From positions 62,001-126,000 of the forward strand of contig JAFRUE010000003.1 in NCBI GenBank assembly GCA_017441925.1: 64,000 nucleotides of DNA, in the 5' to 3' direction. Each line of letters begins with the position of its first letter. Within the stretch, counting starts at the first letter, position 1. The position numbers and the translations under genes were made by a program. This document shows, in pieces, positions 3,199 to 23,703 of this stretch. The notes under the pieces were generated by a model. That model did no database searches and was not told the DNA's origin. It worked only from the letters and a program-made list of their open reading frames with translations. This DNA comes from Bacillota bacterium (lineage in GTDB: Bacteria > Bacillota > Clostridia > Lachnospirales > Bianqueaceae).

Positions 3199-4047
3199 TT
3201 ATCCGGCAGTCTTAACGGATACTTCGCCAAAACCGACCGAGATCTCCTCACCGCTGTCCTGCCGTACGATCAGCTCACAGTTATCTCCGACCGCAGCAGC
3301 CATTCCTTCATACCGGCGGCCGTCCATCTCAAAGGACACGCGCTTCCCCACCGTGAAGCACTTCTTTTTGTATTCTTCCATGTACTCGCCTGTTGCGATC
3401 TTATCCGCACCGTCGAGTACTTCATTAAGGATCTCCGCCGCGAATCTGTTCCGGGAGACCGGCGAAACACCGTTTTCATACAATGATCCTGCGGTCTCAC
3501 GGAGTTCTTCCGGGAATTCGTCTGCTCTGGTCGAAATGTTCAGACCGATCCCGACGACGATCCGGTTGATGCGCTGTATATCAATATCCATCTGTGCTTC
3601 GGTCAGAATGCCGCAGACCTTCTTCCCGCCGATCAGAATATCGTTTACCCATTTGATCTGCGTATCCTTGCCTGTCAGCTTCTCGATGGCATGACAGACC
3701 GCGACCGCCGTCATCGTCGTGATATTGACGGCTTTTTCTCTGGGAATGTCTCTTTGCAGAATAATGGACATATACAGTCCGCTGCCCGCCGGAGATACGA
3801 AGCTCCTTCCCAGTCTGCCTCTTCCGGCCGACTGCGTATTCGCGATCAGCGTCGTCCCGTTCAGCGTGCTGTCATCGGATATTTCCTTTGCCGCGCGGTT
3901 TGTGGAATCGATCTGATCATACAGATAAATATGGATGTTCCTGTATTTCTCCGAAAGATTCTTCTGGATCTCGGACAAAGACAGCCTGTCCGCACGTTCA
4001 GCCTGACTTCCGCCTTTATCTCTGCCGCCGTCAGTACCATATGCCAT
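3199..4047 (-). CDS. birA: Biotin--[acetyl-CoA-carboxylase] ligase, no DNA-binding domain
   Basis: Cytoplasmic enzyme that makes biotinyl-AMP and transfers biotin to a lysine of biotin carboxyl carrier proteins. The 282 residues contain the biotin/ATP loop GRGRLGRSF, the KWVNDI motif, GGKKVCGILTE and a small C-terminal SH3-like domain. There is no N-terminal winged helix; instead about 25 polar residues precede the catalytic core, so this is a monofunctional (group I) ligase that cannot itself repress biotin genes. The start is preceded by AAGGGGGAA. It is transcribed divergently from a small ribbon-helix-helix gene, and an inverted repeat flanks its -10 box, so regulation by that neighbour is possible. 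Confidence 0.94.
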   Translation of the reverse strand: MAYGTDGGRDKGGSQAERADRLSLSEIQKNLSEKYRNIHIYLYDQIDSTNRAAKEISDDSTLNGTTLIANTQSAGRGRLGRSFVSPAGSGLYMSIILQRDIPREKAVNITTMTAVAVCHAIEKLTGKDTQIKWVNDILIGGKKVCGILTEAQMDIDIQRINRIVVGIGLNISTRADEFPEELRETAGSLYENGVSPVSRNRFAAEILNEVLDGADKIATGEYMEEYKKKCFTVGKRVSFEMDGRRYEGMAAAVGDNCELIVRQDSGEEISVGFGEVSVKTAG

Positions 4048-4103
4048 GTTCTGTTCCCCCTTAATTGCGGTGTGTTACAAAAACATATCGGTTTACATAT
4101 ATC

Positions 4104-4133
4104 ATTGTAGCATATATTTTGTAAACTTGTCAA
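4104..4133 (-). promoter_or_regulatory. birA promoter inside a GTTTACA/TGTAAAC inverted repeat
   Basis: On the minus strand TTGACA (4128-4133) and TACAAT (4104-4109) are separated by 18 bases. The arms GTTTACA (4091-4097) and TGTAAAC (4120-4126) flank the -10 element symmetrically, a typical placement for a repressor operator. Binding by the adjacent ribbon-helix-helix protein is inference. Confidence 0.55.
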
Positions 4134-4169
4134 TGTATGATTGTCACAAAGATATAGGAGGATGAGAAT

Positions 4170-4352
4170 ATGACCGACAAGCCACTAGTCATCAGAAAAC
4201 GCGGCGAAGACGGGAGCAAAGTGATCTCTCTGCGCATCCGCCAGGAGACGCTTGATGCTCTTAATAAAATAGCTGCAGAATGCAACTGTTCCCGTAACGA
4301 AGTTATAAATATCATGCTCGAATACGGTGTGTCGAATATAGAGATCAAATAA
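4170..4352 (+). CDS. Small ribbon-helix-helix (CopG/Arc-like) DNA-binding protein
   Basis: A 60-residue protein with the short beta strand KVISLRIR followed by two helices (QETLDALNKIAAECNCSRNE then VINIMLEYG), the ribbon-helix-helix plan. Such proteins bind DNA as dimers through the paired strand. A good AGGAGG site precedes the ATG. It is divergent from birA with 122 bases between the starts and is not followed by a toxin gene; the next gene has its own strong promoter. It is therefore more likely a stand-alone regulator than an antitoxin. The target is unknown. Confidence 0.75.
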   Translation: MTDKPLVIRKRGEDGSKVISLRIRQETLDALNKIAAECNCSRNEVINIMLEYGVSNIEIK

Positions 4353-9813: not shown

Positions 9814-9824
9814 TCTGAGAACTA

Positions 9825-10173
9825 TGGAGATGATGGGAATTGAACCCATGTCCGAAGATCCGTCCATTCCTGGCGCTACCATCATAGCCGGCATTTTGGT
9901 TTCCCGTCATCAGGCCCCTGCCGGCGGGGTCCTGCTCCGGTAGCTTCATCCTATGCCCTTAGTATCTCAAAGCTTTGAAGTAAGGGTGTCCCGCCTTATC
10001 GATGCCTTGTCCGCGGGCGCGGGTAACCTTTGGCAAGACAGCTGCCTGATCAGGCAGCGAATGCGTAACTATTATTGTTAGCGTTTATATTTAAGCTCAG
10101 ATTTTAACGCAGCCCTGAACCTGCGGATGGCTCCCTGAATCTCTGGCACCCCCGTCGAAACCTTGACATCCCC
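9825..10173 (-). ncRNA. ssrA: Transfer-messenger RNA (tmRNA)
   Basis: Rescues stalled ribosomes by acting first as alanyl-tRNA and then as mRNA for a degradation tag. The 5' end GGGGATGTCAAGGTTTCGAC pairs through GGGGATG with CATCTCC at the 3' end to form the acceptor stem; the T arm reads TGGGTTCAATTCCCA. The discriminator A is encoded but CCA is not, so CCA must be added. The tag frame (10050-10082) encodes ANNNSYAFAA followed by TGA, giving the tag AANNNSYAFAA with the usual hydrophobic C-terminus for ClpXP recognition. Length, 349 bases, is normal for a one-piece tmRNA. Confidence 0.97.
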
Positions 10174-17525: not shown

Positions 17526-18767
17526 TTACCAGTTGACCGCGATATCGATGACCCCGGGACCAACGCCTCTGTCGAGGACGATTCCTGTTCCGAGAGACGT
17601 CGAAACGATCGATCCTCTGCTATACTCATACTCACTAGCGGCAAGAATGATATAGCCTCCAAACATCTTACAGCCGTCGCTGCGGATCCAGTATCCGCTC
17701 GTATCCAGGATATTGTCAATGATATCCTTGTTAATGCAGTCATTGTAAGCCCAGCCGCCGCGGTTCATCGCGTCGATCAGTCCGCCCATATACATGTTGT
17801 AATAGGTTTCCTTGTGACCGTTATAATAATTCACGCCCATATATGCGTTCAGCGGTGAATCGTCTACAGGATCCTGCGGTTCAGGTTCGGGTTCAGGTTC
17901 AGGCTCAGCCGGCTCTTCTGCAACAGAAGATTCTTCGGCTTTGGACTCTTCAGCCTTGGATTCTTCTGCTTTAGATTCCTCGATCTTAGAGGACTCTTCC
18001 TTCTTGGATTCCTCAGCCTTGGAGGACTCTTCCTTCTTGGACTCTTCAGTCTTAGAGGACTCTTCCTTCTTGGACTCTTCAGCCTTGGAGGACTCTTCCT
18101 TCTTGGATTCTTCAGCTTTCTTGGCTGCTTCCTCGGCTGCCTTCTGCTCCTCGGCTTTCTTGGCCGCTTCCTCGGCTGCCTTCTGCTCTTCGGCTTTCTT
18201 GGCCGCTTCCTCGGCTGCCTTCTGCTCCTCGGCTTTCTTGGCCGCTTCCTCGGCTGCCTTCTGCTCCTCGGCTTTCTTGGCCGCTTCCTCGGCTGCCTTC
18301 TGCTCCGCCGCTTTCCTGGCTGCCTCTTCAGCCGCTTTCTGCTCTGCAGCCTTCTTGGCCTCTTCAGCTGCCTTCTGCTCCGCCGCACGCTGGGCTGCCG
18401 CCTCTGCTTCGGCCTGAGCCTTTACTTCAGCTTCTTCCTTATGCAGCTGGACCGCAGGAATGACCTGCACAGCCGCGGATGTCTCATCTGCTGCCAGATA
18501 ACGCGTAGCTTCAGGAATTACGATCTCAGAGACCTCTGCATCAACAGCAATAAAACTCACGACTGCCGGAGTTTTATCCAGTGCTGCGGCATAAGCCGTG
18601 ATCGAAACGTCCTGCGTAGCCTTCTGCATGGATCCGCCCTTAACGACCGAAGCCGTTACAGGCGCTTCCTGTCCGGGATTCTTACCGGGCAGCAGGACTG
18701 CCGCGATCATCGCGATAACAAGTACAACAGCCGCTATTCTGCCGGCGATTGCTTTCCAATTCGTCAT
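17526..18767 (-). CDS. Membrane-anchored Ala/Glu/Lys- and Ser-rich repeat protein with 3D-like C-terminal domain
   Basis: A 413-residue protein. Residues 8-27 form one N-terminal membrane helix. Residues about 120-215 are a coiled-coil-like tract built of 13-residue units AAEEAAKKAEEQK, and about 215-270 a tract of 11-residue units of the type AEESKKEESSK, then a Pro/Glu stalk. The last 105 residues are folded and end in IILAAS, RGSIVSTSLG, GIVLDRGVG and IDIAVNW, which resembles the double-psi-beta-barrel 3D domain of clostridial wall-lytic or resuscitation-type proteins. The plan suggests a surface protein whose C-terminal domain is held away from the membrane, possibly in the peptidoglycan. 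The 3D assignment is inference. It has a clear promoter and its own terminator. Confidence 0.8.
   Translation of the reverse strand: MTNWKAIAGRIAAVVLVIAMIAAVLLPGKNPGQEAPVTASVVKGGSMQKATQDVSITAYAAALDKTPAVVSFIAVDAEVSEIVIPEATRYLAADETSAAVQVIPAVQLHKEEAEVKAQAEAEAAAQRAAEQKAAEEAKKAAEQKAAEEAARKAAEQKAAEEAAKKAEEQKAAEEAAKKAEEQKAAEEAAKKAEEQKAAEEAAKKAEEQKAAEEAAKKAEESKKEESSKAEESKKEESSKTEESKKEESSKAEESKKEESSKIEESKAEESKAEESKAEESSVAEEPAEPEPEPEPEPQDPVDDSPLNAYMGVNYYNGHKETYYNMYMGGLIDAMNRGGWAYNDCINKDIIDNILDTSGYWIRSDGCKMFGGYIILAASEYEYSRGSIVSTSLGTGIVLDRGVGPGVIDIAVNW
17985..18390 (-). repeat. Two in-frame tandem repeat tracts (33-base and 39-base units)
   Basis: About four 33-base units encode the AEESKKEESSK-type tract (about 17985-18115) and about five to seven 39-base units encode the AAEEAAKKAEEQK-type tract (about 18116-18390). 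Several 39-base units are almost identical at the DNA level, so length variation by slippage or recombination is likely. Confidence 0.85.
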
Positions 18768-20734: not shown

Positions 20735-21484
20735 ATGAATAACTATAAACTGACTGTCGCCTATGACGGCAGCCGTTACCAGGGCTGGGAACATCAGCCG
20801 GATACGGATCTGACGGTCCAGGGCAAGCTCGAGGCCGTCTTTTCCGCGCTGGAAGGCCGTCCGGTCGAGGTGACCGGCGCAGGCCGTACGGATTCCGGTG
20901 TGCACGCGCTCGGCATGGTGGCAAATGTCCGTCTGGAGACGGATATGCCTGCCGCCGCGATCCGTGATTACGCGAACCGTTATCTACCGGATGACATCAG
21001 TGTAACGGACCTGCATCCCGCGGCGGACCGCTTCCACGCGCGCTATAACGCTGTCGGCAAGACCTACCGCTATACGATCTGGACCGCCCGGTCCAAGCCG
21101 CTTTTTGAACGCAGATATGTCTACGTACCGGAAGGAAATCTTGACGTCAGCCTCATGAAAAAAGCCGCCGAGAGCTACGTCGGCGTGCATGATTTTGCGG
21201 CCTTTTGCGGCAATCCCCGCATGAAAAAATCCACGGTACGCGAGCTGTATTCCGTGGATTTTGAAGAGGACGCTGAGCATCTGCGGATCTTCTATCACGG
21301 CGAAGGCTTCCTGCAGTACATGGTGCGGATCCTGACCGGGACACTGATCGAGGTTGGTCTCCACCGCCGCGATCCCGCAACGATCCCGCAGCTCCTCGAC
21401 GGCGGCAAACGCGCCGACGCCGGCTTTACCGCGCCTGCCAAAGGCCTCTGCCTGATAAAGGTCGACTATAATAGGGACAACTAA
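20735..21484 (+). CDS. truA: tRNA pseudouridine(38-40) synthase
   Basis: A 249-residue enzyme converting uridines 38-40 in the tRNA anticodon arm to pseudouridine. The catalytic aspartate is D53 in GAGRTDSGVHALG; other TruA blocks are YDGSRYQGWEHQP at the N-terminus, VGKTYRY and FLQYMVRILTGTLIEVG. Length is normal. The ATG lies two bases after the MATE stop codon with only a weak purine stretch, so translational coupling is likely. It is followed by a gene-free structured region. Confidence 0.96.
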   Translation: MNNYKLTVAYDGSRYQGWEHQPDTDLTVQGKLEAVFSALEGRPVEVTGAGRTDSGVHALGMVANVRLETDMPAAAIRDYANRYLPDDISVTDLHPAADRFHARYNAVGKTYRYTIWTARSKPLFERRYVYVPEGNLDVSLMKKAAESYVGVHDFAAFCGNPRMKKSTVRELYSVDFEEDAEHLRIFYHGEGFLQYMVRILTGTLIEVGLHRRDPATIPQLLDGGKRADAGFTAPAKGLCLIKVDYNRDN

Positions 21485-21559: not shown

Positions 21560-21767
21560 CAGCAGAAAACAAAGTCTTTTCATCGTGTTTTTCTGCTTTA
21601 TACGCCATCTCGAGCAGAAAAATCACTGTCTTGACACAAAAATTCTGCCTGATGAGGTTCAAATCCCCCTCATCAGGCAGAATTTTAATTGATTTAGTTA
21701 GGTTTTTCTGCTTTTCCGGCTTATCAAAGCAGAATTTCGCTCAAATTGAGCCGTTTTTTCTGCTTGG
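21560..21767. repeat. 208-base palindromic element built of alternating GCAGAA/TTCTGC motifs
   Basis: Gene-free region between the convergent truA and ABC genes. A perfect 19-base-pair hairpin (21639-21657 with 21668-21686, arm AAAATTCTGCCTGATGAGG, loop 10) is at the exact centre. On both sides six more motif copies sit at mirrored distances: AGCAGAAAA near 21565 against TTTTTCTGCTT near 21760, TTTTTCTGCTTT near 21594 against AAAGCAGAATTT near 21731, and AGCAGAAAAA near 21618 against TTTTTCTGCTTTT near 21709. Orientation alternates, so each neighbouring pair can also make a local hairpin. The central hairpin could end transcription from either side; the rest of the design is unexplained. Confidence 0.75.
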
Positions 21768-21858: not shown

Positions 21859-23703
21859 TCAGATCGCTTCGGCGTTGACGAACTGGCTCGTCCAGAGTTC
21901 AGCGTAGAATCCGCCTCGCGCGAGCAGTTCTTCGTGGGTGCCGGTCTCGACGATGTCGCCGTCCTTCATGACCAGGATCACATCCGCGTTGCGGATCGTG
22001 CTCAGACGATGAGCGATCGTGAAGGAGGTCCGTCCCTCGGTCAGCTTCTCCATGGAATCCTGTACGATCTGCTCGGTACGGGTATCGACGGAGCTCGTCG
22101 CCTCGTCCAGGATCAACAGCGGCGCGTCCTCGATCATCGCGCGGGCGATCGTCATCAGCTGCCTCTGGCCCGCCGACAGATTCGAATCATCCGTCAGCTT
22201 TGTATTATATCCGTCCGGCAGTGTCGAGATAAAGTGATGCAGACCGACAGCCTTGCAGGCTTCGATGACCTTTTCATCCGGAACATCCCGCATGCTGTAC
22301 ACGATGTTGTCGCGGATCGAGCCTTCAAACAGCCAGGTATCCTGCAGGACCATGCAGAACTGATCGTGCACGTTTTCGCGGGTCGTTTCCCTCGTATTGA
22401 CGCCGTCGATCCGGATCTGTCCGCCCTGGATCTCATAGAAACGCATCAGCAGATTGACAAGCGTTGTCTTGCCGGCGCCTGTCGGCCCGACGATCGCCAC
22501 CTTCTGTCCGGGCTTGATATCCATCGAGAAATCGTGGATGATCGTGCGGTCCGGCGTATATCCGAACTTAACGTGATCAAAGGTGACCTGTCCCTTGCAG
22601 CCGTCAAGCAGCGCCTGCTTGCCGCTCTCGTCCTCCATCTCCTCTTCTCCGAGGAAGCCAAAGACACGTTCTGCCGCCGCAGCCGCGGACTGCAGATTGA
22701 CCATCGCCTGTGCGAGCATGCCGAGAGGCTGAGAGAACTGCCGTACATACAGGATAAACGCTACGATGACGCCGAAGGTGATCGTTCCGTTCTTGGCCAT
22801 GATCGCGCCGACGACACAGACCGCCACATAGCCGAAATTAGCGATGAACTCCATGAGCGGTCCGTTGATGCCGCCGATAAACTGGCTCTTCCAGTTGTTC
22901 TCGCAGAGCTTTTCGTTCAGACGCTCAAACTCCTTGCGGGATTCCTTTTCGCCGTTGAAGGCCTTCACGATGATGTGTCCCGCGTACATCTCCTCGATAT
23001 GACCGTTGAGCTGTCCCAGATACATCTGCCGCCTGGAGAAATACTTCTGGCTGCGCTTGATGATCACATTCATCATGAAGAAGCCGAACAGGCTCGCCGC
23101 GATCGCGATCAAGGCCAGCAGTACATTAGTGAGCAGCATCATGATCGTGCAGCCGATGAAAACCGTCACTGCCGTGACGATATCGGCCGCGGCGTTATTC
23201 AGGCTCATACCGATCGTATCGACGTCATTGGTCACACGGCTCAGCAGGTCTCCGAAAGAAGACGAGTCAAATCTCGACAGGGGGATCTTGTTGAGCTTAT
23301 GCGAGATATCGTTGCGCATGTAGCGCATGATATTGGACGAGACCGTCGTCAGCGTGATCGCCTGCACATAGATCAGCAGCGCGCTGACCAGATAGAAGCC
23401 AAGCGTGAGCATACTCTTGTGCAGGATCGCCGGCAGATCGATGGAACCGCTCTTCATGCCGTCACTGATCATATCGGTGATCTGGCTCAGCAGATCCGGC
23501 CCGAACAACTGCAGGATCACGCTGATGACCGCGCAGGTAAAAGCGACCGTGATCAGGGGCAGGAAGCGCTTCAGATACAGGATCAGCATCCGCATCGCGC
23601 CCTTAAAGTCCTTAGGCTTCTCCGCGACCCGCATACCGCGCATTCCGGGGCCGCGCGTACTGTTCATATTGACAGATCCAAGCTGATAATCATTCTTTGC
23701 CAT
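21859..23703 (-). CDS. ABC exporter subunit, canonical nucleotide-binding site
   Basis: A 614-residue half-transporter with six membrane helices (about 45-330) and a C-terminal ATPase domain: Walker A GPTGAGKTT, signature LSAGQRQLM, Walker B LLILDEATSS with the catalytic glutamate present. With the upstream gene it should form a heterodimeric multidrug or lipid exporter. Its ATG overlaps the upstream stop codon by one base (TAATG), which signals coupled translation. It is the last gene of a marR-ABC-ABC operon. The first 40 residues are a cytoplasmic extension. Confidence 0.95.
   Translation of the reverse strand: MAKNDYQLGSVNMNSTRGPGMRGMRVAEKPKDFKGAMRMLILYLKRFLPLITVAFTCAVISVILQLFGPDLLSQITDMISDGMKSGSIDLPAILHKSMLTLGFYLVSALLIYVQAITLTTVSSNIMRYMRNDISHKLNKIPLSRFDSSSFGDLLSRVTNDVDTIGMSLNNAAADIVTAVTVFIGCTIMMLLTNVLLALIAIAASLFGFFMMNVIIKRSQKYFSRRQMYLGQLNGHIEEMYAGHIIVKAFNGEKESRKEFERLNEKLCENNWKSQFIGGINGPLMEFIANFGYVAVCVVGAIMAKNGTITFGVIVAFILYVRQFSQPLGMLAQAMVNLQSAAAAAERVFGFLGEEEMEDESGKQALLDGCKGQVTFDHVKFGYTPDRTIIHDFSMDIKPGQKVAIVGPTGAGKTTLVNLLMRFYEIQGGQIRIDGVNTRETTRENVHDQFCMVLQDTWLFEGSIRDNIVYSMRDVPDEKVIEACKAVGLHHFISTLPDGYNTKLTDDSNLSAGQRQLMTIARAMIEDAPLLILDEATSSVDTRTEQIVQDSMEKLTEGRTSFTIAHRLSTIRNADVILVMKDGDIVETGTHEELLARGGFYAELWTSQFVNAEAI

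Follow-up and report, generated by a model that had tools for sequence, protein, structure and literature searches.

Genomic context of the array

The window, the whole stretch of 64,000 nucleotides that was analysed, belongs to a genome of uncultured rumen-type Clostridia (G000). An array of short inverted motifs lies in it between the 3' ends of a truA-type gene and an ABC transporter gene (Table 1). Eight hexamers, all of them exact, alternate in orientation over positions 21562-21763, with GCAGAA starting at 21562, 21614, 21677 and 21729 and TTCTGC at 21591, 21643, 21706 and 21758. The start-to-start steps of 29, 23, 29, 34, 29, 23 and 29 bp resolve into four rigid 35-bp dyad modules of the form GCAGAA-N23-TTCTGC. 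Pairs of the looser form GCAGAA-N15..30-TTCTGC occur four times in the window, always within the array, where 0.09 were expected from shuffled sequences, none of which reached four.

Table 1. Coordinates of the array and its neighbouring genes in the window.
Feature	Position	Strand	Remarks
truA-type pseudouridine synthase gene	20735-21484	+	ends 78 bp before the array; name from protein sequence
Module 1, GCAGAA-N23-TTCTGC, 35-bp dyad	21562-21596		exact match; the 57 modules aligned come from 16 loci
Linker 1/2, 17 bp	21597-21613		commonest linker length of the family
Module 2	21614-21648		exact match; offset from module 1 of 52 bp, five helical turns
Perfect 19-bp inverted repeat, 10-nt loop	21639-21686		includes TTCTGC of module 2 and GCAGAA of module 3
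Linker 2/3, 28 bp	21649-21676		one helical turn above 17; holds the hairpin loop and upper stem
Module 3	21677-21711		exact match; offset from module 2 of 63 bp, six helical turns
Linker 3/4, 17 bp	21712-21728		
Module 4	21729-21763		exact match; 52 bp after module 3
ABC transporter (permease-ATPase) gene	21859-23703	-	faces truA; its 3' end is 96 bp from the array; name from protein sequence

The preliminary description of this locus had reported the eight alternating motifs and a perfect 19-bp central stem, and both were recovered exactly, the stem arms at 21639-21657 and 21668-21686. It had also presented the array as a mirror image organised around that hairpin. The mirror layout is visible here, but as a by-product: each 35-bp module is palindromic and the spacing happens to be symmetric (52, 63, 52). 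Most sister arrays lack this symmetry (the spacings of L015, for example, are 52, 52, 52 and 62), and the central stem is confined to this locus, so the four dyad modules and not the hairpin are the organising units. The hairpin itself is probably a bidirectional terminator serving truA and the ABC gene. Its stem takes in the half-sites by which modules 2 and 3 face each other, so that it has the look of a terminator common to both genes. It was not listed by the terminator scan because its 10-nt loop exceeds the length that the scan permits.

The truA gene of the window is a paralogue, with 39-42% identity to the TruA copies of two congeners. No orthologue of the window's own array was found in the congeners, since this paralogue is absent from their available sequence. 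Elsewhere in the window, a tmRNA gene (Rfam RF00023) was located at 9822-10173 on the minus strand. A 39-nt tandem repeat at 18142-18378 lies in coding sequence, where it encodes an Ala/Glu/Lys-rich segment of a 413-aa protein (17526-18767, minus strand).

Module structure and helical phasing

An alignment was made of 57 modules from 16 loci. It reads (A)AGCAGAAAA, a free stretch, three central A/T positions, a second free stretch and TTTTCTGCT(T), and the functional consensus is a dyad of 35-39 bp, (AA)GCAGAAAA-N7-WWW-N7-TTTTCTGC(TT). The spacers of the 57 modules differ, yet all of them carry a dyad-symmetric A/T pattern that recurs every 10 bp. The A/T fraction at the central WWW is 0.89, against 0.46 elsewhere in positions 9-25, and the A/T profile of the 23-bp interior correlates with its own reverse at r=0.95. 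Spectral power at 10-11 bp was 3.23 (shuffle maximum 0.86), and over whole arrays the A/T autocorrelation peaked at lags of about 10, 21, 31, 42, 52 and 62. Such a pattern is as would be expected of DNA bent with its A/T minor grooves towards a protein, by analogy with the bending described for gyrase and nucleosomes (PMC6379681).

Facing positions showed no excess of base pairing. Within 51 modules, 202 Watson-Crick pairs were observed compared with 212 after partners were shuffled between modules, and in 22 linkers 64 pairs were observed with 68 expected. Pairing inside one copy is thus no more frequent than pairing between copies, which speaks against modules or linkers working as hairpins.

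Distances between module starts were 52 bp (23 times), 62/63, 72/73, 104, 114/115, 124 and 178 bp. L018 has the single spacing out of phase, 91 bp, which is 39 bp when counted to a degenerate copy. With a turn taken as 10.4 bp, all spacings together have a mean phase of -3 degrees (R=0.95). The test was repeated on 14 junctions, leaving out the standard 52 bp and copies related by orthology or recent duplication. These non-52 spacings by themselves keep the phase of the 52-bp step (R=0.87; Rayleigh p=2e-5). Not one among 200,000 sets of random spacings was phased as well, so the linkers lengthen by whole turns. Site spacing in whole helical turns is one of the features by which a helically phased operator array for a DNA-bending protein is recognised, and the arrays show it. 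A variant module, GCTGAA ... TTCAGC, with a matched change in both half-sites, was seen in L021 (3949-3983), 52 bp from a normal module.

Distribution and genomic location

The cluster in the window is one array among several of an intergenic element that is dispersed in the genome and restricted to the genus. Counting this one, module arrays are present at about eleven intergenic loci of G000 (contigs C4, C5, C9, C15 and C16), mostly as clustered modules. In L021, L022 and L029 the modules are nearly solitary, which means that the multi-module array is not universal. A pattern spanning two modules gave 15+14 matches in G000 and none for the control. The rumen MAG RUG12817 (G002), an uncultured member of the Clostridiales and the second species of the genus, carries at least five module loci, with 22 exact GCAGAA-N23-TTCTGC sites per strand compared with 0 for the reversed control pattern. 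A tandem two-module scan of 84,980 species returned RUG12817 only. No array was found in a third congener (G001), in other genera of the family or in the remainder of the order, which was covered with 295 genomes and yielded nothing but single chance matches; the one module of G001 was rejected as an array member, as it sits in coding-like sequence outside any array. A viral origin was likewise discarded, since scans of viral contigs gave no arrays and merely isolated single modules or chance motif clusters, besides one coding tandem repeat (L045).

The arrays of G000 lie at the 3' ends of genes. By the codon-model gene call, eight of the 11 loci are convergent, three tandem and none divergent, whereas convergent pairs make up 16/174 of all gene pairs and 6/31 of the gaps over 200 bp (p=2e-4 against the latter, stricter background). 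The neighbouring genes share no common function. In the searches and sampled stretches by which the genome was covered, no gene was consistently encoded beside the arrays and no candidate for a binding protein emerged.

Other repeats accompany some arrays. Tandem copies of GGGACAGTTC(A/T), about 22 bp or two helical turns apart, are found beside arrays in L028 (3661-3767) and L029 (1421-1454) and possibly represent a second, independent phased motif. The same word, in its form GGGACGGATCT, marks one end of many arrays. A second dispersed intergenic repeat, apparently hairpin-forming and with ends GGCGGTAAAA and TTTTACCGCC (or GGCGGTATAA), flanks modules or GGGACAGTTCT in L021, L022, L028, L029 and L054, and occurs once without an array. 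The word GGGACRGWTCT, present in 164 copies in G000, was considered as a genome-wide REP and rejected, because many copies lie inside genes; GGGACGGATCT is a frequent in-frame word there, and the count is therefore no evidence of dispersal.

Conservation at orthologous loci

Two orthologous pairs of arrays were available between G000 and G002, L024/L030 and L017/L027. In L024/L030 all five modules are kept at identical spacings (52, 52, 62 and 62), and no substitution was found in 60 motif bases compared with 39/115 in the module interiors and 28/88 in the linkers. For both pairs together, the motifs show 0/96 changes and the spacers and linkers 86/289 (Fisher p=6e-13). One spacing shifted between the orthologues, by 1 bp (115 to 114). 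This distribution of substitutions indicates that the core motifs are under purifying selection.

That the motifs are selected as binding sites for a dimeric protein had been proposed from the window alone. The proposal gained strength from the 96 of 96 motif bases kept beside spacers that have diverged by about 30%, from the quantisation of the spacing in helical turns and from the dyad-symmetric, 10-bp-periodic A/T pattern of the module. A lack of spacing conservation in relatives had been named beforehand as one sign that would count against the proposal, and the spacing was conserved. With motif and helical phase kept while the remainder drifts, the comparison is evolutionary evidence for a phased nucleoprotein array and not for an RNA or a passive repeat.

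A CRISPR array has a conserved direct repeat of about 24-40 bp and unique spacers of acquired origin. This class was rejected, as only the hexamers and A/T flanks are conserved here and the same drifting spacers recur at orthologous loci.

Interpretation of the arrays

With a probability of about two in three, we regard the arrays as operator arrays for an oligomerising, DNA-bending, sequence-specific protein, having a BIME-like role without being members of the REP/BIME class. A symmetric DNA-binding protein, a dimer or higher oligomer, would sit on each module and touch both inverted GCAGAA half-sites, which are 29 bp apart. It would curve the DNA around itself where the A/T-rich minor grooves fall, at positions 7, 17 and 27. 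Because successive modules are integral helical turns apart, bound units would face the same side of the helix and could join cooperatively in a single nucleoprotein structure that is curved or wrapped. Since the arrays are found where genes end, in most cases where two convergent genes meet, an architectural role is likely. As judged by position alone, this role is likely that of a boundary, which may be topological or transcriptional, as proposed for BIMEs in enterobacteria.

It is possible, though doubtful, that the arrays are non-autonomous MITE-like elements with ends AGAACTGTCCC ... GGGACGGATCT(C), whose modules would be transposase binding sites or passive cargo. Arrays L020 and L023, at non-orthologous sites, are 78% alike over 264 bp, and the likeness ends at GGATCTC. 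In eight of 15 arrays one flank carries GGGACGGATCT, with at most one mismatch, beginning 24-25 bp beyond the outermost module, and both L019 and L020 carry AGAACTGTCC 23 bp outside the other side. L016 holds an internal duplication (3964-4278), in which a 114-bp two-module unit is repeated in tandem almost unchanged; this is direct evidence of array growth by duplication. However, no clear target-site duplication was seen (L020 has at best an imperfect one), nor was a candidate transposase found. The ends AGAACTGTCCC and GGGACGGATCT stand at a fixed distance in only a subset of the arrays, several lacking end motifs and the window's array lacking both, and the end motif is also common within coding sequence. 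The counterparts of the L024 neighbour in G001 and G003-G005 are distant paralogues, so that no empty site can be demonstrated. The motifs are invariant at orthologous sites while the spacers drift, as would not be the case in a dead MITE. The data suggest that some of the arrays have moved as short elements bounded by inverted repeats, and such an origin can be compatible with a binding function, so that the two readings need not exclude each other.

An unlikely explanation is that DNA gyrase prefers the arrays as its sites, since positive supercoils accumulate between convergent genes. DNA wrapped by gyrase has an A/T pattern of 10.75-bp period (PMC6379681), and the A/T pattern of the modules, their convergent location and the precedent of BIME-2 would all fit. 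Gyrase recognition is nevertheless long and degenerate and would not be expected to keep a pair of hexamers invariant while the spacers diverge; moreover, gyrase is universal and the arrays are genus-restricted.

Slightly less probable still is an RNA element, either a transcribed array alternating between one long stem and several short hairpins, as the preliminary description had offered as its second option, or a composite terminator. Both strands of the window array fold far better than shuffled sequences (z of -6.8 and -6.6), and the perfect central stem points in the same direction. This folding energy is, however, a trivial outcome, as the inverted motifs and the 19-bp stem suffice to give it, and sister arrays do without that stem. 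The switch found no support in the spacer positions that would pair, which do not covary, and an RNA gives no reason for linker lengths that move in steps of 10-11 bp. A search of Rfam gave no RNA family match for the array, and L016 and L017/L027 carry separate terminator-like hairpins outside the array.

A macrodomain or centromere marker (matS- or parS-like), limited to one region of the chromosome, is very unlikely. The modules do resemble long-range dispersed operators, and all 11 loci fall on five contigs (55% of the genome). Arrays were nevertheless found 34 kb and 110 kb from dnaA as well as 50-210 kb from the terminus inferred from the skew switch on contig C4; being near both origin and terminus, they mark no single chromosomal domain.

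Least credible is that the arrays are genuine REP/BIME elements and the product of a RAYT (REP-associated tyrosine transposase): the alternating orientation, the intergenic placement at gene 3' ends and the varying module number agree with it, but the sole Y1 transposase of G000 (L032) is by sequence a canonical IS200-type TnpA with no adjacent GCAGAA array, none was found in G002 (genome 86% complete), and there is neither a contiguous REP hairpin nor a GTAG/CGTC tag.

Comparison with known systems

The REP and BIME elements of enterobacteria are intergenic clusters of one alternating motif that bind IHF (BIME-1) or gyrase (BIME-2) (PMC2817692). The arrays share with them extragenic clusters of regularly spaced units, built from one motif in alternating orientation. 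They differ in the unit, which is not a short hairpin-folding palindrome: where a REP is a contiguous hairpin, the 35-bp dyad is split, its half-sites 23 bp apart around a free interior without pairing covariation. RAYT is missing here, the spacings follow helical turns and the loci number about 11 compared with hundreds.

BOX elements of Streptococcus pneumoniae are also dispersed modular intergenic elements, with a varying number of internal units between two end sequences (PMC3049150). A BOX module is recognised by its conserved sequence and its predicted RNA fold (PMC3049150), whereas the present module is free in sequence except for the motifs and the A/T pattern, and does not covary. Prokaryotic MITEs are similarly short, non-coding and intergenic, with possible inverted ends and possible internal sites for architectural proteins, such as IHF in Correia elements (PMC10969869). 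Unlike these, about half of the copies described here lack the end motifs, clear target duplications and a matching transposase were not found, and the core motifs appear to be under purifying selection.

For the operator arrays favoured here, mechanistic models may be sought among DNA-wrapping and cooperatively assembling proteins. RemA and LrpC/AsnC of the Bacillota have been proposed to wrap DNA, and RemA protects A/T-rich stretches with a periodicity of about 10 bp (PMC8481266). By analogy, they are a possible model for binding of the arrays, although RemA binds direct repeats of low conservation that lie upstream of promoters (PMC8481266). At proV of E. coli, helically phased high-affinity sites about ten turns apart direct the cooperative assembly of H-NS (PMC5418058). 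Phased sites of this kind could likewise be a model for array assembly, but H-NS recognises A/T-rich motifs within a silencer of a promoter region and the present sites are arrays of dyad modules at gene 3' ends. Gyrase or IHF, as bound at BIMEs (PMC2817692), may serve as a further model.

No earlier description of the motif was found in the open-licence literature searched. To that extent the intergenic element is previously unreported, and the evidence of its helical quantisation is unusually clean. More tentatively, it might belong to a lineage-specific chromatin system, in which a putative protein would wrap DNA at arrays of turn-digitised modules at convergent gene ends and so form boundaries or supercoil sinks. 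The roles of BIME-type arrays of intergenic palindromes are still debated, and the GCAGAA/TTCTGC family separates the questions cleanly. Its 35-39-bp dyad module is a well-defined bait for an architectural protein in uncultured Clostridia, and the family offers a way to test convergent gene ends as architectural boundaries.
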